Of a stretch of DNA of 20,249 nt, positions 1 through 20,249 are shown piece after piece. The position numbers were made by a program, and so were the translations under genes. Where the stretch lies: positions 1 through 20,249 of IMG/VR virus record IMGVR_UViG_3300017746_000227; one strand, 5' to 3'. Below the pieces are notes generated by a model, which worked only from the letters and a program-made list of their open reading frames with translations, did not search any database and was not told the DNA's origin. Numbering within the stretch: position 1 is the stretch's first letter; each line of letters starts with the position of its first letter. This DNA comes from a virus.

Positions 1-1
1 G

Positions 2-1428: not shown

Positions 1429-1450
1429 ATGTAATTATTCCGTTATGAAC

Positions 1451-1479
1451 TTGCATTATATGACATAGCGGGTTAAAAT
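1451..1479 (+). promoter_or_regulatory. Candidate sigma70-like promoter for the nuclease/annealase operon
   Basis: TTGCAT (1451-1456), a 17-nt spacer and TAAAAT (1474-1479) precede the nuclease ATG at 1521. The -35 box is weak (3 of 6 consensus bases), the -10 good (5 of 6). The spacer holds ATATGACATAGCGGGT, which recurs near two other promoters (4301-4317 and, on the minus strand, 10388-10372), so it may be an operator. Confidence 0.5.
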
Positions 1480-1483
1480 TCAA
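1455..1483 (-). promoter_or_regulatory. Sigma70-like promoter for the Cro-like regulator
   Basis: Read on the minus strand, TTGAAT (1483-1478), a 17-nt spacer and TATAAT (1460-1455) sit 27 bases upstream of the regulator's ATG at 1428. The -10 box is perfect and the spacing ideal. It overlaps the oppositely directed promoter at 1451-1479, so the two should compete. Confidence 0.7.
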
Positions 1484-1487
1484 CTTA

Positions 1488-1511
1488 CATCTAATGAAAA
1501 CCATCTAATGA
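1488..1511 (+). repeat. Direct repeat CATCTAATGA x2 before the nuclease gene
   Basis: CATCTAATGA occurs at 1488-1497 and again at 1502-1511, so the copies are 14 bases apart. The second copy runs into the AGGAG ribosome binding site of the gene at 1521. It could be a binding site for a translational or transcriptional repressor, or chance in AT-rich DNA. Confidence 0.45.
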
Positions 1512-1520
1512 GGAGATAAA

Positions 1521-3010: not shown

Positions 3011-3302
3011 GTGTCTTAAGGGTAAACCTAAGCACAAATTAAGTGTCACTGATTGTGTCTACCTATGCCTTAGGAAAGGTAGATACATGATGTTTCATGA
3101 GATCAAAGAAATGATCACAAGCAATACTGGTAAGTTCTATGGAGAAGCTACCATATCTGCTGCTATCAGAGATCTCAGAAATGAAGAGCCAAGAATAAGG
3201 TATGAGCTACACCCTTATAATGAAGTTGTAGTAAAGAGAAGAAGAGCCAATAGCAAAGGCTATGAATATAAATTGATACTAGGAGAAAATAATGCAATTT
3301 GA
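2994..3302 (+). CDS. Small winged-helix-like DNA-binding protein
   Basis: 102 residues, basic. The segment FHEIKEMITSNTGKFYGEATISAAIRDLRN reads as a winged-helix core (helix, turn, recognition helix), and a following lysine/arginine-rich hairpin (VVVKRRRANSKGYEYKL) would be the wing. Its ATG lies within the last 17 bases of the annealase gene, preceded by AGGA, so translation is probably coupled. Its place in a recombination operon suggests a replication accessory or regulator. No specific family was recognised. Confidence 0.65.
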   Translation: MKAVPECLKGKPKHKLSVTDCVYLCLRKGRYMMFHEIKEMITSNTGKFYGEATISAAIRDLRNEEPRIRYELHPYNEVVVKRRRANSKGYEYKLILGENNAI

Positions 3303-3714
3303 AAAAAAAGAACTGAAAGGAAGAATGTGGAAAGAGACAAATAGTAAAGTCCTTTTCAAAGGTCCTATTTACATTGAAGGTAAAGATCAATATTTTACAA
3401 TGATCAGCACTCAAGTAAATGGACAGGAGAAGATTGAGCTACTGCAAAGTGTAGGACTCATCTATAGAAAGGATGATCAGAGCAGGGAGAACGCCCCTGA
3501 TCTAGGTGGACCTATTACTGCTATGACTGCTGAAGGATCTAAGTCATTTAAGTATGGAGCATGGGAACAAGCTAATCCTGATACTGGAGATATAAGCCTT
3601 AGTTGTGGCTTATTGATACCGCAAGATCAAAATGGATCTGCAGAGATTGCTCCAAAAGATGAGATAGTCCCACCAAATACAGCAGTCCTTTCTGATGATG
3701 ATATTCCTTTTTGA
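3292..3714 (+). CDS. SSB-like protein with acidic DDDIPF tip
   Basis: 140 residues. The N-terminal part could form a small beta-barrel (alternating strands such as KVLFKGPIYIEG and YFTMISTQVNGQEKIELLQ), then a flexible acidic linker, ending exactly in LSDDDIPF. That D-rich/IPF tip is the hallmark of bacterial single-stranded DNA-binding proteins, which use it to recruit partners. Position directly after the annealase and nuclease supports a role in coating single strands. The OB-fold body is too divergent to confirm by eye. AGGAG lies about 7 nt before the ATG; the gene overlaps the previous one by 11 bp. Confidence 0.65.
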   Translation: MQFEKKELKGRMWKETNSKVLFKGPIYIEGKDQYFTMISTQVNGQEKIELLQSVGLIYRKDDQSRENAPDLGGPITAMTAEGSKSFKYGAWEQANPDTGDISLSCGLLIPQDQNGSAEIAPKDEIVPPNTAVLSDDDIPF

Positions 3715-3722
3715 GGTGCAGT

Positions 3723-3920
3723 ATGAAACTTAAATTTAATTCAAGTAAACCTAATACAGCTACAGTTCAATTCAGGATAGATCCTGACAGTAAAAAGAAG
3801 CTGACTGCACTTAGGAACTATTATGGTGTCACTACAGGTGTGCTGATTAAAGAGATGATTATAGAGTCCTATAAGTCTATCTTGCCATCAGAAAGACCTA
3901 AAGATCCTAATAGCGTATAA
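3723..3920 (+). CDS. Ribbon-helix-helix (CopG/Arc-like) protein
   Basis: 65 residues. The strand ATVQFRIDPDSKKKLTALRNYYGVTTGVLIKEMIIESYKS is the typical RHH pattern: a short beta strand with alternating residues, helix A, a turn, and helix B. Such proteins dimerise and bind short operators. The ATG at 3723 is chosen because GAGG lies just upstream, overlapping the previous stop; an in-frame TTG at 3711 is less likely. It is the last gene before an intrinsic terminator at 3925. Confidence 0.7.
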   Translation: MKLKFNSSKPNTATVQFRIDPDSKKKLTALRNYYGVTTGVLIKEMIIESYKSILPSERPKDPNSV

Positions 3921-3924
3921 ACAT

Positions 3925-3949
3925 AAGGGGTGGAAACGCCCCTTTTTTT
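3925..3949 (+). terminator. Intrinsic terminator after the recombination operon
   Basis: AAGGGGTG, a GAAA tetraloop, CGCCCCTT (8 pairs including one G-U) and a run of seven T. It ends the operon starting at 1521, but the next ATG (3965) is only 15 bases beyond the T run, leaving no room for an ordinary promoter. Confidence 0.85.
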
Positions 3950-3964
3950 ATGTAGGATAGATCT

Positions 3965-4300
3965 ATGGCTAAAAGATTTGTAGATAAAGAACACTTAAAA
4001 TGGGTTACTAAACTACCTTGCACAATATGCAAAGCAGGATTTCTAACGCACTCTAAAGCAATACAAGCTCATCACCTTCTAAGACCATCAACAGGTCCTA
4101 GACAAGGCGTTAAAAGCTCAGATAAAGAGGTTATTCCTCTTTGTTATTATCATCACTCTCTTCTACATACCAAGCATGGAACTGAAGCAAACTTTTTTAG
4201 ACATTATGGTATGCCTGAAGATTTTGGGATCAACTATGCAAAAGAACTATGGGAAAGAAAGACCTATATAGATGATGAGGATAGTGAGCTACCTTTTTAG
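3965..4300 (+). CDS. HNH endonuclease, DUF968/Ref-like
   Basis: 111 residues with a zinc-bound HNH pattern: CTIC (C19, C22), QAHHLLR (H36, H37), then PLCYYHHSLLH (C60, H63, H64, H68) and a final RHYG. This spacing fits the DUF968 / RecA-dependent nuclease (Ref) type found in recombination regions of lambdoid phages, where such proteins act in DNA branch or end processing. It probably complements the upstream nuclease and annealase. The start is only 15 nt after an intrinsic terminator; the leader TAGGATAGATCT holds a short AGGA ribosome binding site. A promoter for the next operon begins 15 bases after its stop. Confidence 0.75.
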   Translation: MAKRFVDKEHLKWVTKLPCTICKAGFLTHSKAIQAHHLLRPSTGPRQGVKSSDKEVIPLCYYHHSLLHTKHGTEANFFRHYGMPEDFGINYAKELWERKTYIDDEDSELPF

Positions 4301-4315
4301 ATATGACATATTGGG

Positions 4316-4344
4316 TTGACTTGTATCCCGTTTTGAACTACTAT
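4316..4344 (+). promoter_or_regulatory. Strong sigma70-like promoter for the small early genes
   Basis: TTGACT (4316-4321), a 17-nt spacer and TACTAT (4339-4344) precede the ATG at 4375. Overlapping its upstream edge is ATATGACATATTGGGTT (4301-4317), whose first 11 bases form the palindrome ATATG-A-CATAT. Nearly the same 17-mer lies in the divergent promoter region at 1458-1474. This is a plausible operator for the Cro-like regulator. Confidence 0.7.
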
Positions 4345-4374
4345 GGACTCATCAATAAATTATAGGAACATAAA

Positions 4375-4776
4375 ATGATGAAAAAAATAATAAACGCACA
4401 CGGAAAGATCAACTCTTTTGGAGCTATATCTTTTGAAGCTGCCACTATCAACTATAGAGAGTCTGTAGGACCTTGTGATTGTGGTGGATCTATATCTTTA
4501 GATACCCAAACTAACACTGATGGATATCAGGATTGGGAAGAACTAGAGTGCACTCAATGCCATAACCCCTCTGCTAATCTTGCAGACTTTGCTATTAACT
4601 ATATACCTCCTTCTGATGCCTTTGGTGACTACAGGAAGGAGAAGATATGGTTAAAGTCTAAGGACTATGTGGAAATGTCTCAAGGTATGACTAGCATGGA
4701 TTGGGATCAATCTGTCAAAGGTCAGAGCTTTGAAGAACTAGCTGCCCGTGAGTTAGGCTTTACAGGAGAAGAATAA
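4375..4776 (+). CDS. Hypothetical early protein with zinc-ribbon-like cysteines
   Basis: 133 residues, family not recognised. CDCGG (about residues 34-38) and CTQCHN (about 63-68) form a C-x-C ... C-x2-C set about 25 residues apart, resembling a zinc ribbon such as those in phage proteins that bind nucleic acid or host RNA polymerase. The rest is acidic with no clear motif. It is first in a run of very small genes behind the promoter at 4316. A second ATG follows immediately at 4378; TAGGAA lies about 7 nt upstream. Confidence 0.6.
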   Translation: MMKKIINAHGKINSFGAISFEAATINYRESVGPCDCGGSISLDTQTNTDGYQDWEELECTQCHNPSANLADFAINYIPPSDAFGDYRKEKIWLKSKDYVEMSQGMTSMDWDQSVKGQSFEELAARELGFTGEE

Positions 4777-5030
4777 TGAAACTAGAAATAATCACTCACC
4801 CTAAATATCTTGGTAATGCTTATGTCATTGAGACTATAGATGGTCTTGCTGAGTGCCTTTGGTGTGCTCCTAGATTTAAAGATGGAACTGTTGATGATCA
4901 TAACTGGTGCATAGTTGAAGATGAGTATGTCTTTGAAAATGTCACTGGATGGAATGAGGTAGAAGTCATTGACAGGATTGATCTACAGGACTTTCTGCAT
5001 AGAGTTAATTTTCACAATGGAGAGCTGTAA
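4776..5030 (+). CDS. Hypothetical small early protein
   Basis: 84 residues, acidic, family not recognised. Tryptophans and cysteines cluster in ECLWCAPRF and NWCIVEDEYVFENVTGW, which could be a compact beta fold. The start overlaps the preceding stop as TAATG, and its own stop overlaps the next ATG in the same way, so the three genes are translationally coupled. AGGAG lies 6-10 nt upstream. Confidence 0.6.
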   Translation: MKLEIITHPKYLGNAYVIETIDGLAECLWCAPRFKDGTVDDHNWCIVEDEYVFENVTGWNEVEVIDRIDLQDFLHRVNFHNGEL

Positions 5031-5200
5031 TGAATATTAAAGATCTACTTTTAAAAAGAGTAAGAGTTATCAATACAACTATTTTTGGTCTATGTATGGG
5101 TCAAAGAGAAAATGGAATGGTCGTAGTTCAAGATGAAGAAACTCATGAGATTGTTGACTATCCATTACATAAACTAGAAAGAGCATATGACAAATTTTAA
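5030..5200 (+). CDS. Hypothetical 56-residue protein
   Basis: Starts on the ATG that overlaps the previous TAA (TAATG at 5028-5032) and ends with TAA at 5198-5200. The product runs from MNIKDLLLKRVRVINTTIFG to LERAYDKF. The central segment (GLCMGQRENGMVVVQDEETHEIVDYPLHKLERAY) looks like a small beta barrel, possibly SH3- or Sm-like, which is a guess. It fills an otherwise empty gap in a tightly coupled operon. Confidence 0.6.
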   Translation: MNIKDLLLKRVRVINTTIFGLCMGQRENGMVVVQDEETHEIVDYPLHKLERAYDKF

Positions 5201-5210
5201 GGAGAAAAAT

Positions 5211-5411
5211 ATGCGTAAATTATATGATCAAGTAATGCCAAAACTTATGAAAAAATATGGCTTCAATGAAAGGACTGATATCTTTAAGATCATGAATAAT
5301 ATGATCACGGATCCTGAAGATCTTAAATCCTTCAAACTTGCTTTTAAATATCCTAATGGAAAGCCTAATCAAAGCAATGATATATCAACTACATTTCAAG
5401 GAGGAAAGTAA
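5211..5411 (+). CDS. Hypothetical small early protein
   Basis: 66 residues, mostly helical, lysine-rich (MRKLYDQVMPKLMKKYGFNERTDIFKIMNNMI). The ATG at 5211 is preferred because AAGGAG lies about 7 nt before it, just after the previous stop; an in-frame ATG at 5187 has no such site. Its stop overlaps the next start (TAATG). Function unknown. Confidence 0.55.
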   Translation: MRKLYDQVMPKLMKKYGFNERTDIFKIMNNMITDPEDLKSFKLAFKYPNGKPNQSNDISTTFQGGK

Positions 5412-5665
5412 TGAGTAAAACAAAAACCCAAACTTCTATGAGGTTAAATCAAATAACCTTAAATCAACTACGCTTTATAAGAGAAGCTACTGGATGTTCA
5501 ATGTCAGTAATCTTAGAAGGCATCATAAATGACTACACACAAGCTCATCTAAGCCGATTAGAGAGCCTTAATGAAAGAAGGCAGCTCATAGCATCAGAGC
5601 AACATCACACGCAGGACAACATCACTGAGTATGAGAATGAGTTAGAGGAGATGTTTCATGTCTAA
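5411..5665 (+). CDS. Ribbon-helix-helix-like protein with C-terminal helix
   Basis: 84 residues. The N-terminal half (TQTSMRLNQITLNQLRFIREATGCSMSVILEGIINDYT) shows the RHH pattern of a basic beta strand and two helices. The second half (about 47-84) is a long acidic/glutamine-rich helix ending ENELEEMF, likely a coiled coil. It resembles the RHH protein at 3723 only in fold. AAGGAGG lies just upstream of the ATG. Possibly an early transcription factor; the target is unknown. Confidence 0.6.
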   Translation: MSKTKTQTSMRLNQITLNQLRFIREATGCSMSVILEGIINDYTQAHLSRLESLNERRQLIASEQHHTQDNITEYENELEEMFHV

Positions 5666-5816
5666 GTTATTTAGAGACTGGTATGAGAAATGTACTGCAG
5701 ATTATGATAGTCTTTCTAAGGAAGAAAAAGCAGAGTTTCAGACATGGGTTGAAGAACAAGGTCAGGATGAACCTGATCATGAGGGGGAAAATGATGGAGA
5801 GTATAGTAATGTATGA
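5658..5816 (+). CDS. Hypothetical 52-residue acidic protein
   Basis: Begins at ATGTCTAAG, whose first 8 bases overlap the previous stop, with GAGGAG about 8 nt upstream. The product starts MSKLFRDWYEKCTADYDSLS and then becomes strongly acidic (EEQGQDEPDHEGENDGEYSNV). Short acidic phage proteins of this kind often mimic DNA or bind host factors, but nothing here proves that. Its stop overlaps the next gene. Confidence 0.55.
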   Translation: MSKLFRDWYEKCTADYDSLSKEEKAEFQTWVEEQGQDEPDHEGENDGEYSNV

Positions 5817-5988
5817 ATTTCAGTATGAGGACAAGCTGACTTATGAAGCCAATTTTAACAGGTGGTTATATGAAGCTAGGAAAGAAAGGAGACAATATAA
5901 TGATGACTTTCTTGAAATAGATGAAGGAGAGTTAATCTTCAGAAAAATGTATGGTTTTAAAGAGATACAAAAAAGGGTCTTTGGTTAA
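5794..5988 (+). CDS. Hypothetical small early protein, last of the rightward block
   Basis: 64 residues from the ATG at 5794, chosen because GAGGGGG lies 6 nt before it; ATGs at 5791 and 5809 are possible. The product has aromatic and charged residues throughout (YEFQYEDKLTYEANFNRWLYEARKERRQY) and a basic end. Function unknown. The stop lies inside the bidirectional terminator hairpin and overlaps the convergent gene by 4 bp. Confidence 0.55.
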   Translation: MESIVMYEFQYEDKLTYEANFNRWLYEARKERRQYNDDFLEIDEGELIFRKMYGFKEIQKRVFG

Positions 5989-5998
5989 GATCCTTTTT
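5970..5998. terminator. Bidirectional intrinsic terminator at the convergent junction
   Basis: AAAAAGGGTCTT (5970-5981), loop TGGTT, AAGATCCTTTTT (5987-5998): 12 pairs with one G-U. Flanking A and T runs give a U tail on either strand. It overlaps the stop codons of both converging genes (5988 and 5985), so it ends early (+) and late (-) transcription with no wasted sequence. Confidence 0.85.
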
Positions 5999-6221
5999 CT
6001 TTAGCTTTGATCTCTGAGGAGTACATGATGTTTAATCCCGCAAGGGTGCATAATCTTTGCTTCTCATCCTTTCCTTTATCTGTAAGCTCATGCAATTCAT
6101 CAATCATGATCACATAACCTTCTTTAACAAGCTCACTTAGAACCTCTGATGGCAGAGAGTCTCTGAACATTATAGAAAGTAAACCACCTAGTCTTTTTGT
6201 TTGAGTTTTACTTAAAGCCAT
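5985..6221 (-). CDS. Hypothetical small late protein
   Basis: 78 residues, helical and charged, last gene of the leftward block. ALSKTQTKRLGGLLSIMFRDSLPSEVLSELVKEGYVIMIDELHELTDKGKDEKQRL reads like a small helix-turn-helix or winged-helix fold, but no family is recognised. Its ATG overlaps the preceding gene's last 14 bases. The stop lies in the bidirectional terminator. Confidence 0.55.
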   Translation of the reverse strand: MALSKTQTKRLGGLLSIMFRDSLPSEVLSELVKEGYVIMIDELHELTDKGKDEKQRLCTLAGLNIMYSSEIKAKEKGS

Positions 6222-7647: not shown

Positions 7648-8040
7648 CTAGTCCTTTGTGGAATTTTCAGACTCTTTTTTATCATCATCATATTCTCTAT
7701 AGAACTCTACTATCCCAAGAACATCCCTTAGATAACGCTTCAATTCAGCCATGTTCATTGATAAATTTTCATAATCCTTAGAGGTCAATGAATAGTATGC
7801 GGTGGGTGGTGCTGAGCCACTCTCTAAATCATTAAGATATTGTTCCATGATCTCAGGGGTTAAAATTTCCCAATCAATGTCCACCAACTGCACTTCTAGG
7901 GGGAGAGGGGGGTGATACATTGGAGGAGACTCAGCGATTGTTACAACTTCAACGGGTCTTGTCTGACTGGGTATCATAGAACATCCAGTAGTCAATATAA
8001 CTAAACTAACTATTATTAGATTCTTCATCTTCCGTTTCAT
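7648..8040 (-). CDS. Outer-membrane spanin-like lipoprotein (o-spanin)
   Basis: About 130 residues. A basic N terminus and hydrophobic stretch end in LTTGC, a slightly atypical lipobox, so it is probably lipid-anchored to the outer membrane. The body is proline-rich near the start (SPPMYHPPLPLEV) and has an acidic helical end with YENLSMNMAELKRYLRDVLGIVEFYREY, a pattern seen in Rz1-like phage lipoproteins. It follows and overlaps the i-spanin gene by 35 bp, the usual two-component spanin order. ATG at 8040 is used; 8028 is an equally good alternative and a TTG lies at 8043. It would fuse inner and outer membranes after the endolysin acts. Confidence 0.7.
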   Translation of the reverse strand: MKRKMKNLIIVSLVILTTGCSMIPSQTRPVEVVTIAESPPMYHPPLPLEVQLVDIDWEILTPEIMEQYLNDLESGSAPPTAYYSLTSKDYENLSMNMAELKRYLRDVLGIVEFYREYDDDKKESENSTKD

Positions 8041-8422
8041 CAAATTGTGTAGGGTCAGTAAGCTCTATGAGCTCTTCTTTAACTTTTTTAGTACCTTTGT
8101 TGACTATCTTTTGTATCAATGCAGGTTTAGCAAGTGCAAGATTATCTAAATCATGCTTTGCAAAGGTTGATCTTAATTTGTTTACCTCTCTCTGAGACTC
8201 TAAGTTCTGTTTAGAGAGTTTATTTACTTGTGCTTGAGTTTGCTCTGCCTTTGCTAAATGAGCTTTTATAGCTTCATTCTGTTGCTGTATGGAGTTTTCT
8301 AAGGCTATGGCATTGGCTTTTAGTGTGGAAATATTGTCTTGTAGTCTATCTATATACCACGCAGATCCTGATCCAACTAAAATCAAGAGTACAAGTAAGA
8401 CTGCTGCAGCTTTAAATCCCAT
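8006..8422 (-). CDS. Inner-membrane spanin-like protein (i-spanin, Rz-like)
   Basis: 138 residues. One N-terminal membrane segment (about 4-22: KAAAVLLVLLILVGSGSAWYI) is followed by a long periplasmic coiled coil (about 25-85, rich in Q, K, E and L) and an acidic tail ending TEDEESNNS. The segment KHDLDNLALAKPALIQKIVNKGTKKV is shared with phage proteins I recall near lysis genes. This topology and the overlapping lipoprotein gene downstream match i-spanin/o-spanin pairs. Together they would complete lysis of a Gram-negative host. Confidence 0.72.
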   Translation of the reverse strand: MGFKAAAVLLVLLILVGSGSAWYIDRLQDNISTLKANAIALENSIQQQNEAIKAHLAKAEQTQAQVNKLSKQNLESQREVNKLRSTFAKHDLDNLALAKPALIQKIVNKGTKKVKEELIELTDPTQFDETEDEESNNS

Positions 8423-8462: not shown

Positions 8463-10229
8463 TCAAATAACTGTAAAGATCTTCAAAGGTTTACTCTTGC
8501 CTTTTACTGCTATTGGGACTAATTCTTTTAGATCCATTCCGCTTTTCTCTGCAGTGACATCACCTATTAAAAGACTAACCCCTCTATCTTTAGTAGCACT
8601 CTCTAGCCTTGCTGCTTGATTTACAGCATCACCTATTGCTGAATAATCAAACCTAGTATCAGATCCCATATTCCCGATTGATGCTACACCTGATTGAGTT
8701 CCTACGCCCACTGCGACTGATGGTAATCCTTCTGCTTGTAGCTCTTCTGATACCCTTTCTACTTCTTCTAAGATCTCTTGTGCTGCTTCTATGGCTAATC
8801 TTTCATGATTGTCTAAGTCTAAGGGAGCTCCAAAGATATACATCCCTGCATCTCCAATAAACTTATCTACCATTCCACCTCTCTTAGTAACTGCTGCAAC
8901 TTGAACAGTCAGCACTCTATTCATAATGTAAGCTACTTCTGTAGCCTTGAGCTTCTCAGTCATAGCAGTAAATCCTCTAAGGTCCGTGAATAAGTAAGTA
9001 CAGTACCTTTTTTCTCCGCCTAGTTTTAACAGCTCAGGATTCTTTTGCAGCTTATCTACTTGAGCAGGATCTAAGTAATGCTCAAACTGCTTCTTAATTA
9101 ATTGTCTTAACTTATACTGCTCTCTAAATCTTAAATAAAATCCAGTGGATCCTGCTATAAATTGACTGATAAGGGACCATGTGACATCTACTAATAAACC
9201 ACCTGTAATAAACTTGAATCCCGTAAACGCTGTTAGAGCCATTATTCCTATACTTGATGTAATGCCCCAAGTGATACCTAAATAGCTTATTAGAATCCAA
9301 ACTAGAGCCACTGAGACTGTATATATTAGAAGCTCTAGGGCTATTGCATAGTCAGGAATATAAGGTGAATCTTGTATTAAGATTGATTCAGCTAAGGCAG
9401 CTTGGATCTTATGAGGTTCTAATAATCCTGCAGGGGTTGCAAGTTGGGGCATAACTCCTGATGCAGTGACCCCTATAATTACATAACGCCCCATGACATC
9501 CATATTCTGCAGATCCGTTTGTGGTGTATCTACCCATGAGATCCATTTCATACCATTACTATCTGTCTTTACTGGAGGTATTCCTCTGATTGATATTTCT
9601 TCTATACCATTATCATTAGTTTTTATAATATAAGTTTTGACACCAAATAATGCTTTATAGATCTGAGTTGCAAAAGATGGGATCCATTGATTGTCAGTTG
9701 TTCTTACTAGAAGTGGGACTTTTCTTATGAGGTTGTCTACATCAGTAGGAGCAGTAGCTATCCCCTGTAATGATTGCTCTTGTAGTTTGTTGAGATTTTG
9801 CACTACTCCTTCAATAACTATACCACCAATATCTTCACCTTTGACCACTGTTCCTGAAGATTTAGGGTAGTTTCCACTGCTATCTGTAAACATTGCCAAT
9901 ACTGATCCGCCCCATCCTAAGACCTCTGCAAAAGCATCATCTCCACCCATCCTGTCAGGTTGAGGAAAGCTGATAGACCATCCAACACCTATAGCTCCTT
10001 TCTCTAAGAGTTGTTGATGGATCTCTGCTAGTCTTTGTCTTGGTAATGGATAGCCACCCTCTGCTGCTACATCTTCTTCTGTAATATTAAGAATCACAAA
10101 ATTACCTGATGGATCCTGTTCTTTTACTAAAGCATCAAAGGTCCTTAGCTTAATTATTTCTGTAGGTGTAGATTGAAATAATAATGGCAGGGATAAGAGG
10201 GGTAATAAAAGAATTAAAAATCTTTTCAT
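8463..10229 (-). CDS. CHASE2-domain class III adenylate cyclase
   Basis: 588 residues. Membrane segment 1 (about 3-17) leads into a periplasmic CHASE2 sensor (about 20-290; KLRTFDAL, GAIGVGWSISFPQPD and VDNLIRKVPLL are typical). Three membrane segments follow (about 297-365), then a catalytic class III cyclase domain (about 405-588). The domain has both metal aspartates (LFTDLRGFT and FIGDAGMYIFG), the adenine-selecting Lys in VDKFIGD with Ser in DYSAIGD, and the transition-state Asn and Arg in AVNQAARLE. It should make cAMP in response to an outside signal. ATG at 10229 is chosen since it begins the signal-anchor; codons upstream overlap the terminator. Bacterial CHASE2 cyclases often neighbour FecR-domain genes, as here. 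A phage copy is unusual. Confidence 0.9.
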   Translation of the reverse strand: MKRFLILLLPLLSLPLLFQSTPTEIIKLRTFDALVKEQDPSGNFVILNITEEDVAAEGGYPLPRQRLAEIHQQLLEKGAIGVGWSISFPQPDRMGGDDAFAEVLGWGGSVLAMFTDSSGNYPKSSGTVVKGEDIGGIVIEGVVQNLNKLQEQSLQGIATAPTDVDNLIRKVPLLVRTTDNQWIPSFATQIYKALFGVKTYIIKTNDNGIEEISIRGIPPVKTDSNGMKWISWVDTPQTDLQNMDVMGRYVIIGVTASGVMPQLATPAGLLEPHKIQAALAESILIQDSPYIPDYAIALELLIYTVSVALVWILISYLGITWGITSSIGIMALTAFTGFKFITGGLLVDVTWSLISQFIAGSTGFYLRFREQYKLRQLIKKQFEHYLDPAQVDKLQKNPELLKLGGEKRYCTYLFTDLRGFTAMTEKLKATEVAYIMNRVLTVQVAAVTKRGGMVDKFIGDAGMYIFGAPLDLDNHERLAIEAAQEILEEVERVSEELQAEGLPSVAVGVGTQSGVASIGNMGSDTRFDYSAIGDAVNQAARLESATKDRGVSLLIGDVTAEKSGMDLKELVPIAVKGKSKPLKIFTVI

Positions 10230-10245
10230 TGCAGAATAATAACAC

Positions 10246-10270
10246 AAAAAAAAAGACAGCTATTGCTGTC
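10246..10270 (-). terminator. Intrinsic terminator just before the cyclase start
   Basis: On the minus strand GACAGC, loop AATA, GCTGTC, then nine T. The T run ends 16 bases before the cyclase ATG (10229). It ends transcripts from FecR or from the leader promoter at 10366-10395. Confidence 0.85.
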
Positions 10271-10359
10271 TCTTTGCGGAAGTCTGAGGTAAATATCCGC
10301 TTCACTCCTCTTACTATTAAATCAATTTATTATTAACTCCTTTTAAGTTATCATTTGAT
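10246..10359 (-). promoter_or_regulatory. Candidate ~114-nt leader or small RNA before the cyclase
   Basis: From the predicted start point (about 10359) to the terminator there is no convincing gene. It contains two Shine-Dalgarno-like stretches (AAAGGAG, AAGAGGAG), a hairpin GCGGA (10300-10296) with TCCGC (10280-10276), and a CCTC in that hairpin's loop that could pair with the upstream GAGG. It may be a terminator-controlled leader for the cyclase, a small RNA, or a degenerate peptide gene starting near ATATTTACC. I could not match it to a known riboswitch. Confidence 0.4.
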
Positions 10360-10365
10360 GAAATA

Positions 10366-10395
10366 AGTATACACCCAATTTGGAATATTATGCAA
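10366..10395 (-). promoter_or_regulatory. Sigma70-like promoter between FecR and the cyclase
   Basis: On the minus strand TTGCAT (10395-10390), an 18-nt spacer and TATACT (10371-10366). The spacer reads ATATTCCAAATTGGGTG, close to the motif at 1458-1474 and 4301-4317. It gives the cyclase and the genes after it (lysis) a possible start independent of the structural operon. Confidence 0.6.
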
Positions 10396-10414
10396 GTCTT
10401 TTATGGATTATTTT

Positions 10415-11533
10415 TTATTGGCTTTGTGTGATCTTAATATAGTTACTGCTGCCACCATTAATTGTAATTACTCTGCTGACTCCATCTTGAATAAAGATAA
10501 CAGTATAACTGCCACCAACATCAAGATCTAATCTTGCTTGAGAACTTACATTTCTTTGCAGAGTTAAGACCTGACCTGTTATAAAACTTGTCACCTGAGT
10601 TGTAAGGTCCTGACCAAATTCAGTTCCTGATATATTTACTGAGCTGCCATCTTGTGCTAATTCATCTTCTTCTGCAACTTCTAAAGCATCTAAAACATCA
10701 AGTAGATCTTCTAAGAAATTAACATCAAGATAATTTATGTCTAATTCACTAAACTCAAAATCATCATCAGAAAAGAAATCTTCATCTAAGTAATCTATAT
10801 CTAAACCATCAAAATCTAAAGCATCTTTAGTCTTTATCACTTCTTCCTCTGAAGATAGGATCTCTTCTTTTGGTGGTGAAACAATTAGCATATTATCTAA
10901 CTGATCTAGGTTTAGATCTAAGATAACTGGTTTACTTGGCGTACCTTCAAAAACTGAAACAGTTGTAGCTTGAAAAGGTTTATTGAGAAGGACTGAACCT
11001 CCTCCAGTAATGACCTCTATTTCTCCTGATGATAATCCAAAAGCATCAGGTAAAAGAATTATTAGACTTTCTCCAAGCTCATTAACAGTAGCACTGAAGT
11101 CTGTTCCTCTAATGCTGATGTTAGCAGTGGGCGTTTTAAGTTGGATGTTTTGCTTATCTATTCTATTAAGATTGCCTGTAATAAATCGGGTTGTCCCCAT
11201 TGCAAAGGTCAGAGCCATCTTGCTTTTAGATGGATCAGGATCATAGATATATTCATCTATAAGAAGCTGAGAATGTTCTGTTAGCCTTACTGTAGAGTCA
11301 TCTAAGAACTTTAAAGCCATTCTCCCATTGTAGGTTATAGCTTCATCATTCTGTTGAATAGAACCGCCCTGAATAGCTTGGATCTGCAGATCATTTTCTG
11401 CTCTGATCAGCTCGGCTTTGCCTTTTAGTTCTGATATATCTCCAATACTAACAGCTTGTACTTGTTCCGCCATCATTTTGAGTGATGCAAACAGTACCGC
11501 TATTACCAGTAGACATGATCTTGAGCCAATCAT
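10415..11533 (-). CDS. Secreted FecR-domain protein with acidic repeat region
   Basis: 372 residues. A signal peptide (about 1-27, cleavage after VQA) leads into a FecR-type beta-rich domain (about 28-200): LKGKAELIRAENDLQ, FLDDSTVRLTEHSQLLIDEYIYDP, and the signature LKTPTANISIRGTDFSATV. Residues about 237-295 are very acidic with repeated LDIDYLDEDFF / LDINYLDVNFL units, possibly calcium-binding or surface-contacting. A beta-rich C-terminal domain follows. No membrane anchor is seen, so it should be periplasmic or exported. The first 86 bases, encoding the signal peptide, overlap the curlin gene in another frame, and no Shine-Dalgarno is evident. It lies between curlin and a CHASE2 cyclase; FecR-cyclase pairs are common in bacteria, so it may be the cyclase's periplasmic partner. 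Confidence 0.85.
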   Translation of the reverse strand: MIGSRSCLLVIAVLFASLKMMAEQVQAVSIGDISELKGKAELIRAENDLQIQAIQGGSIQQNDEAITYNGRMALKFLDDSTVRLTEHSQLLIDEYIYDPDPSKSKMALTFAMGTTRFITGNLNRIDKQNIQLKTPTANISIRGTDFSATVNELGESLIILLPDAFGLSSGEIEVITGGGSVLLNKPFQATTVSVFEGTPSKPVILDLNLDQLDNMLIVSPPKEEILSSEEEVIKTKDALDFDGLDIDYLDEDFFSDDDFEFSELDINYLDVNFLEDLLDVLDALEVAEEDELAQDGSSVNISGTEFGQDLTTQVTSFITGQVLTLQRNVSSQARLDLDVGGSYTVIFIQDGVSRVITINGGSSNYIKITQSQ

Positions 11534-12158
11534 TATTTAATGTGCTTAATTGATTAATGTTAAAAGTTCTTGAATTACCAGTCTGATCTAAATAAAAATA
11601 ACCACCATCTTCACCCTGACCTGTAAAATTAATAGTGTTTGAATCACCATCAACATCTACATAGTTAGTTGCACCATCATAGTTAATATTAAAATCAAAA
11701 GTATTTGAATCACCTTGTATTATCCAATCAAGATCCAAAGTACCTGCAAGAGCTGTAGTTCCATGATCTAAAGTAAAGGTGTTAGAACCTCCAGTGACAG
11801 CTACATTATAATTTGAGCTATCAATGCCATAAGAACCAGTTGGATCTCCTTGTATTGTGAAACTATTGCTATCACCATCAAAGTTAAAAAATCCAGTAAT
11901 TGAATCACCATAGATGTCACCAAGCATCTTGTTTGAATTACCAATTTGGTTTATTTCAAGTGTAAGAGAGACAGCATCTAAATCAAAAGGATTGAGATCA
12001 CCTGCAGCACTCTCTAAACCTCCTATGATATTACCTGCTCCTAACTGCTCTAAATTCAGGTTTAAAGTTGCACCTGTTTGCTCTACATAAATTTCATTAT
12101 CTGAAGCTGTTGCAGCTAGTGTAAAAATTGCTAGTACGCTAATTAATGTTTTCTTCAT
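11448..12158 (-). CDS. Curlin-repeat (CsgA/CsgB-like) amyloid subunit
   Basis: 236 residues. Signal peptide (about 1-18, MKKTLISVLAIFTLAATA) followed by imperfect curlin-type repeats with alternating strand residues and x-G-x-SN turns: VEQTGATLNLNLEQLGAGN, LEINQIGNSNKM, GDSNSFTIQGD, GGSNTFTLD, IQGDSNTFDFN, VDGDSNTINFTGQG, LDQTGNSRTFNINQ, MSTGNSGTVCITQND. These match the Q-x-G-x-x-N ladder of curli subunits that stack into cross-beta fibres. Two cysteines near the C terminus are unusual for curlins. Directly downstream of CsgG and overlapping it by 20 bp, so it is presumably CsgG's export substrate. Whether it forms fibres or nucleates host curlin is unknown. Confidence 0.85.
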   Translation of the reverse strand: MKKTLISVLAIFTLAATASDNEIYVEQTGATLNLNLEQLGAGNIIGGLESAAGDLNPFDLDAVSLTLEINQIGNSNKMLGDIYGDSITGFFNFDGDSNSFTIQGDPTGSYGIDSSNYNVAVTGGSNTFTLDHGTTALAGTLDLDWIIQGDSNTFDFNINYDGATNYVDVDGDSNTINFTGQGEDGGYFYLDQTGNSRTFNINQLSTLNNDWLKIMSTGNSGTVCITQNDGGTSTSC

Positions 12159-12972
12159 AAGTCCAAAATCCCTTATCGTATCCGATAATAATTAAGTTAT
12201 ATACCGCTTCCTCTATAGCCTTCATTAAAGCTAAAGTGGAGCTCTCATTGCTAGAAGCACCTACTTCAATTTCAATGAGCTCAGCATCATCATTTATGAA
12301 CTTAAACACATCTTGTGACTGACCATAAGAAAAGAGAGTTTTCTTGGACATGATCTCTATTAAGACCTCTCCAGTTGCTACGCTTATAAGCCTTAGACTA
12401 ACGCTTACAATATCTTCCCGATACTGTATGCTAGTTCCAATACCTAAGTATCTAGCACCTGCACCACCTGTTCTTACATTACTATCATAGCTTACAACTG
12501 CACCCTCTAGCAATACACCTGCAAATAGCAGGGGCATAAGTGGTTGAATTTCCTCTTGGTTCTTTGTAAATTGCTCTCTTGTAGATCTAATTATTTGTCT
12601 TTCTTTTGTAAGATTATCAAGACCTATTCTTTCAGCGACTGTAAAAAATTCTCCATTACTTGCGTGTTTAAGTGCCCTAATTAAAAGACTATTTGGTGCT
12701 TGAGTTATAGCAGTTGAGAATAATGCAAATTCAGAATTAGATTTTCTTTGACCTGTTTGATCTGTAAAAGATGTAGGATAAATTGCTACTACTGGTTTTA
12801 CTTTTGGTCGGGGTGCGTTTTTTAATTTCTCACTTTGGAGATCATATATTGAAGCATTGTTTAATCCTTTGGACTTAAATCTTTCTGCGTAGCTATCGTC
12901 TAATATTTGATTTATGCTACAGCTAGAAAGTAAAAGAACCGATAGGAACTGTAATTTCTGTCGTATTACCAT
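12139..12972 (-). CDS. csgG: CsgG-family curli secretion channel lipoprotein
   Basis: 277 residues. Lipoprotein signal with lipobox LLSSC (C18). The body aligns closely with E. coli CsgG as I remember it: VAIYPTSFTDQTGQRK, FSTAITQAPNSLLIRALK, ERIGLDNLTKERQIIRSTRE, VVSYDSNVRTGGAGARYLGIGTSIQYREDIVSVSLRLISVATGEVL, and YDKGFW at the end. CsgG forms a nine-fold outer-membrane pore for curli subunits. In the constriction loop (about 77-86) the Phe before STA is kept (F85), while positions matching E. coli Tyr51 and Asn55 appear to be Ser80 and Leu84, so pore selectivity may differ. It overlaps CsgF by 50 bp upstream and curlin downstream. Very confident in the family. Confidence 0.95.
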   Translation of the reverse strand: MVIRQKLQFLSVLLLSSCSINQILDDSYAERFKSKGLNNASIYDLQSEKLKNAPRPKVKPVVAIYPTSFTDQTGQRKSNSEFALFSTAITQAPNSLLIRALKHASNGEFFTVAERIGLDNLTKERQIIRSTREQFTKNQEEIQPLMPLLFAGVLLEGAVVSYDSNVRTGGAGARYLGIGTSIQYREDIVSVSLRLISVATGEVLIEIMSKKTLFSYGQSQDVFKFINDDAELIEIEVGASSNESSTLALMKAIEEAVYNLIIIGYDKGFWTYEENIN

Positions 12973-13465
12973 CTGAGTCAGTTATTTTTAGGGTTATCAT
13001 AGTTCCATCTTCAGAGACTGTATATTCAATAGTATTCCCCATTAGCTCTAAAATTCCGCTAGTCTGAGGTGTCTCTCCAAATAGATTATCAACTAACTGC
13101 CTACTCAACTGAGCATAGATTCTTGATTCTAGGTTTCTAATAAACCTTGCAAGTGTTGTATTTTCTTCATCTCTTTTAAGCTGTTCTTTATAGGCTTTCA
13201 GTTCTGCTAAAGCTGCTTCACGCCTATTGAACTCTTGATTCTCAATCGTAAGATAATGTGAGCTAGTACCAACACCTGAGAAACTTGGTGATTTAAACTT
13301 GTGCACTATTTGATCAGCTCTTAATTCTTGAGCTGCAATTCCAATCAGTAGTATCACACCTACTACTGTAACAAATTTAATAATAAGATCTTTTTCTTTA
13401 GCTTTTTTTTGAGCTAATAGATCTGCTTTACTGGGTCTACCCCTTTTCTTTTTTATCTCCGCCAT
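12923..13465 (-). CDS. csgF: CsgF-family curli assembly protein with basic N-terminal tail
   Basis: 180 residues from the ATG at 13465 (GAGG about 6 nt upstream). After a membrane/signal segment (about 29-46, LIIKFVTVVGVILLIGIAAQ; probable cleavage after RA at about 50), DQIVHKFKSPSFSGVG matches the mature CsgF start that plugs the CsgG channel (G-x-FxFxNPxFGG type). The central helix (RIYAQLSRQLVDNLFG) and C-terminal beta part (GNTIEYTVSEDGTMITLKITDSDGNTTEITVPIGSF) also match CsgF. Odd: the first 28 residues are cytoplasmic and contain KKKRGRPSKADLLAQ, an AT-hook-like RGRP motif, not normal for CsgF. An extra charged helical insert (about 75-105) is also present. It directly precedes CsgG. 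Confidence 0.85.
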   Translation of the reverse strand: MAEIKKKRGRPSKADLLAQKKAKEKDLIIKFVTVVGVILLIGIAAQELRADQIVHKFKSPSFSGVGTSSHYLTIENQEFNRREAALAELKAYKEQLKRDEENTTLARFIRNLESRIYAQLSRQLVDNLFGETPQTSGILELMGNTIEYTVSEDGTMITLKITDSDGNTTEITVPIGSFTF

Positions 13466-13703
13466 CATCTACCTCATTCTGTTTTAGCTTTAGAACAGTA
13501 TTAACTTTCTGCTGTAATCGTATCATATCTTGATCTAATAGCCTAAGTTGGTCAGTGAGTCTGATAATGGTGTTCTTCATTTCTGAGATTGCAGGATCTA
13601 TAGTATTGGTTATAGTTTGCCAAACAAAATACACAAAGTAGCCTAGACCAACTACCATGATAGTTGTAAACCCGAACTGTTCTACTAGGGCTACTACATC
13701 CAT
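13437..13703 (-). CDS. Holin-like membrane protein with coiled coil, paralog B
   Basis: 88 residues. One membrane segment (about 10-32, FGFTTIMVVGLGYFVYFVWQTI) and then a coiled coil (about 38-72, SEMKNTIIRLTDQLRLLDQDMIRLQQKV) with a charged tail. It aligns along its length with the neighbouring upstream gene: DVVALVEQFG/EVFDLIEKVG, VGLGYFVYFV/LGMGYFIFLI, DQDMIRLQQKV/NNDMIRIDVSV. Small TM plus coiled-coil proteins in late phage operons are often holins or antiholins, but position next to CsgF leaves a curli-accessory role possible. ATG overlaps the paralog's stop by one base. Confidence 0.6.
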   Translation of the reverse strand: MDVVALVEQFGFTTIMVVGLGYFVYFVWQTITNTIDPAISEMKNTIIRLTDQLRLLDQDMIRLQQKVNTVLKLKQNEVDDGGDKKEKG

Positions 13704-13997: not shown

Positions 13998-14396
13998 TTA
14001 GTCTCCTGAGTTTTCACCTTTAAAACTACTTGAAGATCCTGTTGTTCCTGCATACAAGCCAAACCATGCAGCTCCTGCACCTACTACAATAGATATAAGA
14101 CCTGATTGCTCAAAGGATGGCTCAGGTAGATCCATGAACCAAATAGTACACTTATAAAGAAGCACAATATAAACAGTCAAAAACATACGGGGAAAGATAC
14201 GCCATGAATCAACAGCTCTAGCTAAATGGATCCATCTCTGATGCGGGTTTACTTTATCATCAGCTTCAAGATCTCTTATTTTATCTTTAAGATCTGAGAT
14301 CTCTTGGATCATAGCCATGAACTTACTAAGATCCATTTCTACTTCATTGCGGTCCATGTCTCCACCAAACCTACTACCTTGATTATTATCATTCAT
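13998..14396 (-). CDS. Two-TM holin-like membrane protein
   Basis: 132 residues. An N-terminal acidic part with a coiled coil (about 22-46, LSKFMAMIQEISDLKDKIRDLEAD) precedes RWIHLARAVDSWRIFPRMF, then two membrane helices (about 69-91 and 98-118, ending VVGAGAAWFGLYAGT). This RAVDSWR plus VVGAGAAWFGLY pattern recurs in small phage membrane proteins that I recall being labelled holin or hypothetical. It is first of three consecutive small membrane protein genes. AAGGAG about 7 nt upstream of the ATG supports the start. Confidence 0.65.
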   Translation of the reverse strand: MNDNNQGSRFGGDMDRNEVEMDLSKFMAMIQEISDLKDKIRDLEADDKVNPHQRWIHLARAVDSWRIFPRMFLTVYIVLLYKCTIWFMDLPEPSFEQSGLISIVVGAGAAWFGLYAGTTGSSSSFKGENSGD

Positions 14397-17002: not shown

Positions 17003-20000
17003 TTAATCTGTAATAAGGATTCTTCCATTTCCACCATCAATCGTTATATTTCCAACAACTATCTTGTCATCAGAATTAGTGCCTATTGTCATTGTAGCAC
17101 CTACACTCATATTACCTGTAATGTTCCCATTTGTATCTATAGTGCTTCCATTGTTAGTTGAGCCTGTAGCCACTCCGTCTAACTTCCCTGATCTAGTAGA
17201 ATCTAAAGATGCTAAGTCACTAAGACCTACATTGGCTTTTCCTAGTGTTTGTGTTCCTGAACCTGCGTTGTTTAAAGATAATGATGTTCCACTAAGCCCT
17301 AAAGTTATTTGATTATTTTTTAAACTGTTTGGAGCATTTGTAGCATCAGTTTTTATAGCACCAATACCAGTAGCTGAAACAGTACCACCACCTGCTCCTG
17401 ATAATGCACCTGCAGCACTTATAGAGATCTGACTATTCTTTAGTGCGTTCTTAGCTTGTAGGCTACCTCCACTTACCTCAAGATCAGTAGAAGTTAAACT
17501 AAGATTAGTCAAGTCAACTTTAACCTGAGCATGATTAGTAACCTGATCTAAACCAACATCAGAAGCTGTAGTGTTTTCATTTTTAATTGAAGCAGGAGCA
17601 TTAGTTAAATCTGTTTTAACAGCTCCAAGACCTGTAGCAGATACTGTACCTCCACCTGCATTTGATAATACTCCCGCAGCACTTATAGAAATTTGTGAAT
17701 TTTTTAGTGCATTTTTAGCTCTAAGAGATCCGCTATTAACCTCAAGATCAGCAGACTCTAAAGATAAATTAGATAAGTCTGATTTAACTTGAGCATCATT
17801 AGTCAGTTGATCTAAGCCAATATCATCCTTATCAAGAGATATATTTCCTGAACCTGCGTTAGATAGAGAGATATTACCGCTACTATCTTTAGCTAATGTG
17901 ACTTGTGAATTTTTCAAGCTATTAGGTGCATTGGTAGCATCTGTCTTGATAGCTCCTATTCCAGTTGCTGAGACAGTTCCGCCACCTGCCCCTGATAAAG
18001 CACCTGCTGCACTAATAGAGATCTGAGAGTTTTTGAGTGCGTTCTTTGCCCTTAGAGATCCACTATTTACTTCAAGATCATCAGATTCTAGTGCTAGGTT
18101 GCTTAGATCTGATTTTACCTGAGCATCATTTGTGAGCTGATCTAAACCAACATCATCTTTATCAAGAGATATATTTCCTGAACCTGCATTGTTTAATGAA
18201 ATATTACCACTGCTATCCTTAGCTAAAGTGACCTGATCATTTTTTATACCAGTTGGAGCATTGGTCAAATCAGTTTTAACAGCTCCAAGACCTGTTGCTG
18301 AGACAGTTCCGCCACCTGCATTTGATAATACTCCTGCTGCACTGATAGAGATCTGACTATTCTTAAGTGCATTTTTAGCTCTAAGACTACCCCCACTAAC
18401 TTCAAGATCAGTAGAAGTTAAAGTAAGATTAGATAGATCTGATTTAACCTGAGCATCATTGGTCAGTTGATCTAGTCCTACATCATCTTTATCAAAGCTA
18501 ACATTTCCACTTCCTGCATTGGTAAGAGATAGATTTCCGCTACTATCTTTGGCTAATGTTACTTGATCATTTTTTATACCAGTTGGAGCATTAGTAAGAT
18601 CTGTTTTTACAGCTCCTAAGCCTACAGCAGTTGCCTGACCACCACCTGCACCTGTCAAGGATCCATCAGAGCCTATAGAGATCTGATTATTCTTAAGTGC
18701 GTTCTTTGCTCTAAGGCTTCCTGAGTTTACTTCAAAGTCATCTGCTAATAATGATAGATTAGTAAGATCACTTTTAACCTGAGTATCATTGGTCAAATTG
18801 TTTAGACCTACATCATTTTTATCAAAAGAAACATTCCCTGAACCTGCATTATTAAGAGATAGATTTCCTGATCCATCTTTAGCTAAAGTCACTTGACTAT
18901 TCTTTATTGCTGTTTTACCTCTTAGCTCATTACTGGTGACTTCAAATAGATCTGATTCAACTGAGAAATTACTTAGATCTGATTTAACTTGTGCATCATT
19001 GGTGACAAGATTTAGACCTATATCACCTTTATCATAAACTGAATAACTAGCATTTACTGAGCTTGTAAATGAAGAATGTAATCCAGTATGAGTTATAGCC
19101 CTAAGCCAAAAGTAATAAGTAGTCCCTGCTGTCAATCCATCCATAGCTCCCTGAAACATTACTGATTTGGCATTTGGTTCACCCATCATTGTATGAACTA
19201 AATTAGTATCATTTGTTGGAGTAGAGTTAGAGGTTTTTCTATAGATTTTTACAGCTCTTAAATTGCTTACATTTGGATTGGTCCACTGCAGTACAATACC
19301 TACTCTATTACCTGAAGCAGTAAATGCTGAAGGTGCTGATATAGATGTTGGATCTGTAATGGTTATATTTACTGCTGATGTATAAGCACTCTTAACACCA
19401 TTAATATCAAGATGAGCTAGTTTGACATTATATGTTTTACCTATAGCTACATTAGGTATAAGACCTGCTGAAGCTCCTTTTCCAATAAATATATCAGAGG
19501 TATAGTCAGAGTCAGTGCTTAGCTTATAAGTCATCTCTGTACCTATAACCTTATCTGCAGTGTTGTTAGTCCATGTAGCTTTAATGTCCATTTTATAACC
19601 TGCACCCTCTGCTATACTCTGTTGAGCTAGTGCTAAGTTTGTTGGTGCTGTTAAAGAGAAATCACCAGTATCATCTTCATCTCCTTCATCTTGTGGATTT
19701 TCATAAGCTGATGATAAGAAGCTATATACAGAACCATCTATCTCTTTTAGTGTTAGTCTAGTTGCTAAGACTGGATTATCTTTCTCACCCATAACCTCCA
19801 ATGACTGACCTAAAACTTCAAAGACTTTGTTAGTATAACCAAGCCTTTCATTAGTCACATAAACCCAATCAAAGACCTGTAGCTGCATAAATGCAATATT
19901 AGTTGTAAGCTGAATTGTTGTTTTTTGCCTATGATGTAATAGAGCTTGTTTCTGTAATCTTTGAGCTAATGTATTGCTTGTAGTGAATGGAAACTGCAAC

Positions 20001-20249
20001 TCTAAAGTCTTTCTATAGTTTGCAGTAGATTCACCAGTAGGTGTATCTGCAGCAAGTAAGGTTGAATCAGTGTAAGTCGGAGTTTCTTCAGCTTGATATT
20101 TTGAATTTGGATCTACAAAAACTGACTTAACCTGATTAAATGTTTCGTGTCCTGATGGATTAGTTGCAACTTGTGCAGGTGCTAATAATTGATCATCAGT
20201 AATAGTCATTTCAGGAGTCACTGTAGCTCCTGCAAAAATCACAAACTTA
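17003..20249 (-). CDS. Lambda J-like tail-tip/host-specificity protein with repeats, 5' partial
   Basis: Open to the window edge; the visible part is over 1,080 residues. The start (about 1-180) with LQKQALLHHRQKTTIQL, DWVYVTNERLGYTNKVFEVLGQSLEV resembles the J/central tail-tip family of siphophages. Two fibronectin-III-like domains follow (about 195-400; NLALAQQS..., PSAFTASGNRVGIVLQWTNP...). Then come repeats of about 110 residues (about 410-1010) made of NDAQVKSDLSNL, GSLRAKNALKNSQISISAAG, VKTDLTNAP and VTLAKDSSGN blocks. A beta-helical-looking tip ends GNITIDGGNGRILITD. It probably sits at the tail tip and binds the host receptor. An in-frame GTG at 20242 is not the true start. Confidence 0.8.
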   Translation of the reverse strand, partial: KFVIFAGATVTPEMTITDDQLLAPAQVATNPSGHETFNQVKSVFVDPNSKYQAEETPTYTDSTLLAADTPTGESTANYRKTLELQFPFTTSNTLAQRLQKQALLHHRQKTTIQLTTNIAFMQLQVFDWVYVTNERLGYTNKVFEVLGQSLEVMGEKDNPVLATRLTLKEIDGSVYSFLSSAYENPQDEGDEDDTGDFSLTAPTNLALAQQSIAEGAGYKMDIKATWTNNTADKVIGTEMTYKLSTDSDYTSDIFIGKGASAGLIPNVAIGKTYNVKLAHLDINGVKSAYTSAVNITITDPTSISAPSAFTASGNRVGIVLQWTNPNVSNLRAVKIYRKTSNSTPTNDTNLVHTMMGEPNAKSVMFQGAMDGLTAGTTYYFWLRAITHTGLHSSFTSSVNASYSVYDKGDIGLNLVTNDAQVKSDLSNFSVESDLFEVTSNELRGKTAIKNSQVTLAKDGSGNLSLNNAGSGNVSFDKNDVGLNNLTNDTQVKSDLTNLSLLADDFEVNSGSLRAKNALKNNQISIGSDGSLTGAGGGQATAVGLGAVKTDLTNAPTGIKNDQVTLAKDSSGNLSLTNAGSGNVSFDKDDVGLDQLTNDAQVKSDLSNLTLTSTDLEVSGGSLRAKNALKNSQISISAAGVLSNAGGGTVSATGLGAVKTDLTNAPTGIKNDQVTLAKDSSGNISLNNAGSGNISLDKDDVGLDQLTNDAQVKSDLSNLALESDDLEVNSGSLRAKNALKNSQISISAAGALSGAGGGTVSATGIGAIKTDATNAPNSLKNSQVTLAKDSSGNISLSNAGSGNISLDKDDIGLDQLTNDAQVKSDLSNLSLESADLEVNSGSLRAKNALKNSQISISAAGVLSNAGGGTVSATGLGAVKTDLTNAPASIKNENTTASDVGLDQVTNHAQVKVDLTNLSLTSTDLEVSGGSLQAKNALKNSQISISAAGALSGAGGGTVSATGIGAIKTDATNAPNSLKNNQITLGLSGTSLSLNNAGSGTQTLGKANVGLSDLASLDSTRSGKLDGVATGSTNNGSTIDTNGNITGNMSVGATMTIGTNSDDKIVVGNITIDGGNGRILITD
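17220..19020 (-). repeat. Tandem 330-bp repeats in the tail-tip gene
   Basis: Anchoring on the GL-x-x-LTNDAQ codons, copies lie at 17811, 18141, 18471 and 18801, exactly 330 bases apart. Flanking copies are at 17220 and 17547 (264 bases before 17811) and at 19011 (210 bases after 18801). The short units correspond to missing 22- and 40-residue blocks, so this is a mosaic of three sub-blocks. Copies are similar but not identical at DNA level, with many silent changes. They probably lengthen the tail fibre and give sites for recombination. Confidence 0.85.

Follow-up and report, generated by a model that had tools for sequence, protein, structure and literature searches.

A putative curli-type export cassette with a divergent curlin-like gene in a predicted marine siphovirus

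The IMG/VR record IMGVR_UViG_3300017746_000227, classed as viral and analysed here over its whole length of 20,249 bases (the window), carries on its minus strand three overlapping genes that match csgF, csgG and a curlin gene. The csgF and csgG genes share 50 nt, csgG and the curlin-like gene share 20 nt, and the latter overlaps a fecR gene by 86 nt. A preliminary description, made from the sequence alone, had read the three genes as a phage-borne, late-positioned secretion cassette encoding a channel, its accessory protein and a likely substrate, and the coordinates, profile matches and overlaps bear this out. The cassette proved larger than described, however, with two genes for transmembrane (TM)/coiled-coil proteins upstream and genes for a FecR-domain protein and a CHASE2-cyclase downstream (Table 1).

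The identity of the central gene as csgG is, on sequence grounds, certain. As the preliminary description had stated, the match is nearly full length: it covers positions 2-208 of the 210 in the PF03783 profile, and a phmmer search of the PDB matched E. coli CsgG (4uv2) together with other CsgG entries. The window protein has the lipobox LLLSSC, and a lipobox-like signal was found in 84/84 relatives. In E. coli the constriction ring of the channel is formed by Tyr66, Asn70 and Phe71 in precursor numbering (PMC7304575); the phage constriction loop is one residue longer, retaining the Phe71 equivalent and carrying Leu at the Asn70 position. Homology and the conserved contact residues suggest that phage CsgG forms an outer-membrane pore. 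The absence of CsgE noted earlier was confirmed with PF10627, which matched nothing in the window and nothing in the ten related phage records examined while an E. coli control was positive; CsgD and CsgC were not searched separately.

The gene upstream can, by the same kind of evidence, be identified with certainty as csgF, as had been proposed. The protein aligned to positions 4-132 of the 132-position PF10614 profile with 59 bits (cut-off, 25.8 bits), and its start codon lies at 13468, the previously chosen 13465 being the next in-frame ATG. Alignment showed residues 1-51 to be a signal-anchor leader that varies freely among contigs, whereas the N-terminus of the mature protein, which begins at about D52, is nearly fixed as (A)DQIVHKFKSPSFSG. 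Within it, F58, P61, F63 and G65 match the CsgG-anchoring peptide. The first three correspond to F26, P29 and F31 of E. coli CsgF and are invariant in 17 contigs, in which the F24 position is mostly His. Point mutants of E. coli CsgF at F24, F26 and F31 were disrupted in CsgG binding (PMC10133297); phage CsgF keeps two of these three anchoring Phe residues. The study of phage Melnitz suggested that phage CsgG and CsgF may have stopped pairing (PMC9004378), and the conserved F26 and F31 equivalents count against that suggestion.

The third gene was harder to classify. Its product reached 9.7 bits with the Pfam Curlin_rpt profile, below the gathering cut-off of 20.7 bits, and we therefore call it curlin-like; the curlin identity assigned in the preliminary description stood in four independent tests, which support a divergent curlin-like protein. 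A repeat scoring matrix was built from 571 units of 52 curlins adjoining bacterial csgG. With it, the window protein showed four units of at least 6 bits (best, 21.1), a number reached by 0/500 shuffles, and control window proteins stayed near background. In the best units, FYLDQTGNSRTFNINQLS and IYVEQTGATLNLNLEQLG, the second Gln stands 11 residues past the first, as in curlins; this Q-x-G then Q at +11 arrangement is found in the first and last units, with the N position shifted or replaced. Six G-x-x-N pairs were invariant among 14 relatives (0/20,000 permutations). With hhalign, the protein matched the second curlin of phages HTVC008M and Melnitz at 96.9%, and these second curlins themselves pass Pfam (5e-8 and 2e-4). 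The gene also keeps its place directly after csgG in all relatives with contigs long enough to include it. The protein has a Sec-type signal peptide, its nearest-canonical repeats at both ends, GxxN repeats between them and two C-terminal Cys residues. An AlphaFold2 (AF2) model was all-beta, with a predicted local distance difference test score (pLDDT) of 76.6. Searching PDB sequences with the curlin profile and with the CsgF profile returned nothing relevant.

Table 1. Positions of the cassette genes and neighbouring features in the window.
Feature	Position	Strand	Evidence
Tail tip J	17003-20242	-	Inspection and homology to relatives
up132, small protein	13998..14396	-	phrog_10198 E=2.5e-20
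tmcc_a, one TM helix and coiled coil, 125 aa	13703..14080	-	phrog_18771 E=2.7e-24, hydropathy
tmcc_b, tmcc_a paralogue, TM helix and coiled coil, 88 aa	13437..13703	-	phrog_18771 E=3.8e-23, alignment
CsgF	12923..13468	-	PF10614 E=7.2e-16, alignment
CsgG, outer-membrane secretion lipoprotein	12139..12972	-	PF03783 E=3e-45, PDB 4uv2 E=3.7e-45, lipobox
Divergent curlin-like protein	11448..12158	-	Repeat matrix, GxxN, hhalign, AF2 model
FecR-domain protein	10415..11533	-	PF04773 E=2.7e-9, phrog_37870, C-terminal motif
185-nt stretch with terminator-like hairpin (10275-10250)	10230..10414	-	Contig comparison
CHASE2 sensor and class III adenylate/guanylate cyclase	8463..10247	-	PF05226 E=2.5e-26, PF00211 E=3e-12
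Rz and Rz1-like spanins, immediately after the module	7648..8422	-	phrog_739 E=1.1e-13, phrog_812 E=1.7e-15

On the minus strand the module follows the gene for tail tip J, four tail-fibre-like genes and a small-protein gene (up132). It runs through the two TM/coiled-coil paralogues, csgF, csgG, the curlin-like gene, fecR and the cyclase gene, beyond which lie the Rz/Rz1 spanins, a small nuclease and a lysozyme-like endolysin. Positions 1-6000 hold the replication genes, in the opposite orientation. J, the nuclease, the lysozyme and the replication genes were labelled from inspection and from their homology to relatives, and no Rfam match was found anywhere in the window. The C-terminal half of the J-like protein contains long near-identical repeats (VTLAKDSSGN-SL-NAGSGN / VKSDLSNL / LRAKNALKNSQIS).

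Upstream of csgF, up132 lies directly next to the module in the siphovirus lineage, as it does in some other contigs. A tblastn search found it in 355 phages, mostly of Vibrio, many of which do not have the module, so that it is probably not a dedicated module part. The TM/coiled-coil pair (tmcc_a and tmcc_b) gave no kinase domain at E values up to 10, and tmcc_a had no Pfam match. Among cultured phages, their family is restricted to those with csgG, which lowered our estimate that they are general holins. Wittmers et al. placed one or two histidine kinases ahead of the phage type VIII secretion system (T8SS) module (PMC9599517). Kinase-less proteins probably occupy this slot, the published kinases, compared by description only, probably belonging to the same small family.

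The FecR protein comprises a signal peptide, a FecR domain, an acidic linker and a C-terminal half that is conserved and has IKITQSQ as its last residues. Its N-terminus is thus a signal peptide followed by the FecR domain alone, and with the N-terminal sigma-binding part of anti-sigma FecR proteins missing, a role as iron regulator is unsupported; no sigma-factor gene was recognised among the window's open reading frames (ORFs) by inspection, no profile scan having been made. The C-terminal half was unmatched in 111 FecR-positive alphaproteobacterial genomes, and among the FecR matches listed for 385 alphaproteobacterial genomes none reaches into it. No phage-type FecR was found near csgG in the 26 non-phage loci recovered, and its profile gave no match at E 1e-6 in 11 bacterial curli genomes, a search run without a positive control. 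Near the C-terminus (window 10418-10440, with the same in L002, in L003 and in almost every contig) lies an h-x-h-x-Q strand. Such a strand was present in 72/74 FecR proteins and 29/52 bacterial curlins, related sequences whose counts are not independent; among controls it occurred in 24/1155 other bacterial ORFs and 14/1259 unclassified phage ORFs. A true curlin repeat in the FecR tail is not supported: Pfam matched 1/16 at E=0.11, hhalign gave 4% and the repeat matrix lent no support. The motif is a hint that FecR may contact the fibre or the channel. An AlphaFold model of FecR (pLDDT 33) was discarded.

The likely start of the cyclase is the ATG at 10229. The motifs FTDLRGFT, DKFIGD and VNQAARLE supply the two metal-binding Asp residues and the Lys, Asn and Arg; the catalytic metal and Lys motifs were found in 61/61 sequences and the Asn/Arg motif in 58/61, and the active site is intact. 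In most contigs the fecR stop and the cyclase start overlap by one base, whereas in others 185-1184 nt lie between them, some with small genes. The gap is an insertion site: the short 185-nt form is present in the window and in L004 and missing from the near-identical L005 and L006. In the window and in L013, L021, L040 and L069, the cyclase start is preceded, at a distance of about 23-25 nt, by a terminator-like hairpin.

When IMG/VR was searched with the CsgG of the window, 213 relatives were obtained, of which 80 were kept. Module gene order was constant in these 80 loci, and also in HTVC008M and Melnitz; a curlin gene came next after csgG in 76 of the 80, the remaining four ending at that point, and in many loci spanins and lysozyme followed the module immediately. 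The ratio of nonsynonymous to synonymous substitution (dN/dS) was mostly 0.02-0.25 for each module gene, and 0.04-0.16 for the curlin gene. Every module gene is therefore under purifying selection, which maintains the channel, the cap and the substrate alike. Six contigs from genome collections, assigned there to Pelagibacter, Maricaulis, Flavobacteriaceae and Rhodobacteraceae (L121, L098, L105, L109, L110 and L101), carry the phage module; they are probably phage contigs binned into bacterial metagenome-assembled genomes. The phage record OR851715.1, a 1499-base 'Salmonella phage', encodes a CsgG and may be a piece of host DNA that was submitted as a phage.

The carrier was characterized through G003, a 51.8-kb relative with a helicase 75% identical. 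G003 encodes an HK97-type capsid, portal, terminase, tape measure, distal tail protein and J; since capsid, tape measure and tail proteins are of this kind, the carrier is assigned, from gene content, to an uncultured marine siphovirus. The G003 tape measure was found in 10/32 contigs tested. Roseobacter phage CRP-831 has similar tail genes and a similar C-terminal portion of the portal, and the tail genes point towards phages of Roseobacter and Pelagibacter, a tentative clue to the host. A small minus-strand ORF near the replication genes (window 1213-1428) looks helix-turn-helix-like by eye, which might hint at a temperate phage. An unrelated 58-kb phage, G007, has almost only the module (51-69%) and the spanins in common with G003, and the Rz/Rz1 spanins are shared with both G006 and G007. 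The CsgG tree, a quick tree with Shimodaira-Hasegawa-like approximate likelihood ratio (SH-aLRT) support whose long branches make the deeper part unsafe, mixes siphovirus contigs with PolA-bearing ones (e.g. L015 with L051, support 97). Together, the sharing with G007 and the mixed tree indicate, at the level of sequence comparison, that the cassette travels as a block between phage types.

As the preliminary description noted, csgG and csgF occur in some marine phages: between 2020 and 2022, modules with a co-encoded curlin were described in print from pelagimyophages, from podophages of the HTVC023P type and from Melnitz. The co-encoded curlin, which the preliminary description had singled out as possibly novel, is thus not new; Wittmers et al. 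reported CsgF, CsgG, CsgA/B, FecR and a cyclase in phages in 2022 (PMC9599517), and in GenBank the HTVC008M gene that follows csgG was already annotated as a curlin. The window shares with the Wittmers module the order small upstream gene(s)-CsgF-CsgG-curlin-FecR-(second curlin)-cyclase, and neither is known to have CsgE (CsgC and CsgD are likewise unreported for the published module; PMC9599517). Its upstream proteins are kinase-less where histidine kinases were described for the published module, probably the same small family under another name; it differs in having no second curlin and in the 185-nt terminator stretch between fecR and the cyclase gene. HTVC008M and Melnitz have the complete syntenic module, with CsgG 38-39% and CsgF 45% identical to the window proteins; unlike the window's carrier, they are myoviruses with a second, Pfam-positive curlin. 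In HTVC008M this second curlin (L002:10268-11590), annotated as hypothetical, has a PA14 domain (E=2.7e-6) before five curlin repeats and is a possible fibre-tip adhesin. The carrier also differs from HTVC023P-type podophages: it is a predicted siphovirus, G003 has one oxygenase-like protein and nothing else in common with HTVC023P, and no PolA was found in the long relatives G002-G005 and G010, linear contigs that may be incomplete, so that its absence is not absolute.

Like bacterial curli systems (E. coli csgBAC/csgDEFG and alphaproteobacterial csgF-csgG-curlin loci), the window encodes the CsgG fold family, the CsgF anchoring peptide and curlin repeats. Unlike E. coli, it has an altered CsgG constriction loop, no CsgE and no apparent N22-like segment, and unlike the 26 non-phage loci recovered it joins a phage-type FecR to the module. 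Campylobacterota have FecR-CHASE2-cyclase clusters for which one shared pathway was proposed (PMC9239204). These resemble the phage pair in placing a FecR-domain envelope protein beside a CHASE2 adenylate cyclase; the phage pair differs in having no phosphodiesterase or TPR partner, in being joined to a curli module and in the extra FecR C-terminal half. The system is of a known kind. To it our analysis adds a siphovirus as carrier, evidence that the cassette is transferred as a block, evidence on the curlin and corrections to two published readings. We found no earlier report of a siphovirus carrier in the literature searched, subscription journals and preprints lying outside that search.

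We propose, as the best overall explanation and with moderate confidence, that the module is a phage type VIII (curli) export cassette for late fibre display. Its position between the tail genes and Rz/Rz1/lysozyme on one strand suggests late expression with tail and lysis genes. CsgG would form the outer-membrane pore, capped by CsgF through its inserted N-terminus, and the curlin-like protein would leave the cell by Sec and then through this pore, forming a curli-like fibre on the infected cell. That the system exports a fibre at all appears fairly probable. The two TM/coiled-coil proteins may be module-specific inner-membrane helpers. As FecR-CHASE2 pairing is known in bacteria, FecR, in the periplasm or on the surface, and the cyclase could be a signalling pair that makes cyclic nucleotide according to envelope state. 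In a more elaborate version, the FecR C-terminal strand would attach to curlin or to the mouth of CsgG-CsgF, and the cyclase would sense secretion or fibre state in a lysis-timed envelope-to-cyclic-AMP circuit; this is speculative and, in our judgement, quite unlikely. With fibres on a dying cell and on its debris, neighbouring cells would be kept close to released virions; such capture as the selected benefit is a tentative suggestion.

Several observations weigh against fibre display. Besides the missed Pfam cut-off, Foldseek returned for the curlin model only non-significant matches, mostly to beta-helix proteins, which is compatible with a solenoid and no proof of one; inspection of the curlin N-terminus showed no apparent Gly-rich N22-type segment. 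The window lineage has a single curlin and not the second one of myophages, no CsgE gate was found, and Melnitz cultures did not clump under the conditions used (PMC9004378).

Clumping, a block to superinfection and altered permeability, the roles considered in the preliminary description, have all been proposed before (PMC7029224, PMC9004378, PMC9599517). Ranked second after a fibre that holds neighbours is superinfection exclusion, in which curlin-coated or pore-remodelled cells would be shielded from competing phages (PMC9599517). Strong purifying selection fits this, as does carriage by several unrelated phage types that probably encounter the same hosts, but exclusion normally needs early expression and the cassette lies in a late tail/lysis block, which makes it an unlikely function. 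Less likely again is that CsgG, with or without CsgF, serves mainly as an outer-membrane pore that helps to time lysis or to break down the envelope, the curlin acting as plug or passenger. A lysis role was proposed for Melnitz (PMC9004378); in its favour are the direct adjacency to Rz/Rz1 and lysozyme in many contigs and the sharing of both module and spanins with G007. However, an outer-membrane pore leaves the inner membrane polarised, CsgF, curlin, FecR and cyclase show roughly the same degree of conservation as CsgG, and the myophage module is not adjacent to annotated lysis genes. An open pore for nutrient or cofactor uptake by the infected cell (PMC7029224, PMC9599517) would suit the lack of a CsgE gate; it leaves the conserved CsgF cap, curlin and FecR unexplained and sits poorly with the late genome position, and we consider it very improbable. 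Finally, although CsgG is common in bacteria, the possibility raised earlier that host curli genes were joined to phage DNA in assembly is negligible, as the J-to-cassette junction recurs in contigs of other metagenomes (L004-L007), as does the cassette-to-lysis-gene junction (L006, L007), the module is also in the different phage G007 and in cultured phages, the record is of viral class with no tool result for a false join, and host-type bacterial CsgG falls outside the phage clade.

A siphovirus carrier would extend the trait beyond two phage families and have it move as one block with the adjacent lysis region. It also suggests that published per-family counts, assigned by the best hit of T8SS proteins, may include siphovirus modules among those of podoviruses. 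Expression of the published phage modules in marine metatranscriptomes has been reported (PMC9599517), and the window cassette is compact, intact and suited to expression in a laboratory strain. SAR11 and OM43 H5P1 have no curli genes (PMC7029224, PMC9004378). If these cassettes work, phages of some of the most abundant ocean bacteria would make their hosts show amyloid fibres that the hosts themselves may not encode, with effects on aggregation, adsorption and perhaps gene exchange.

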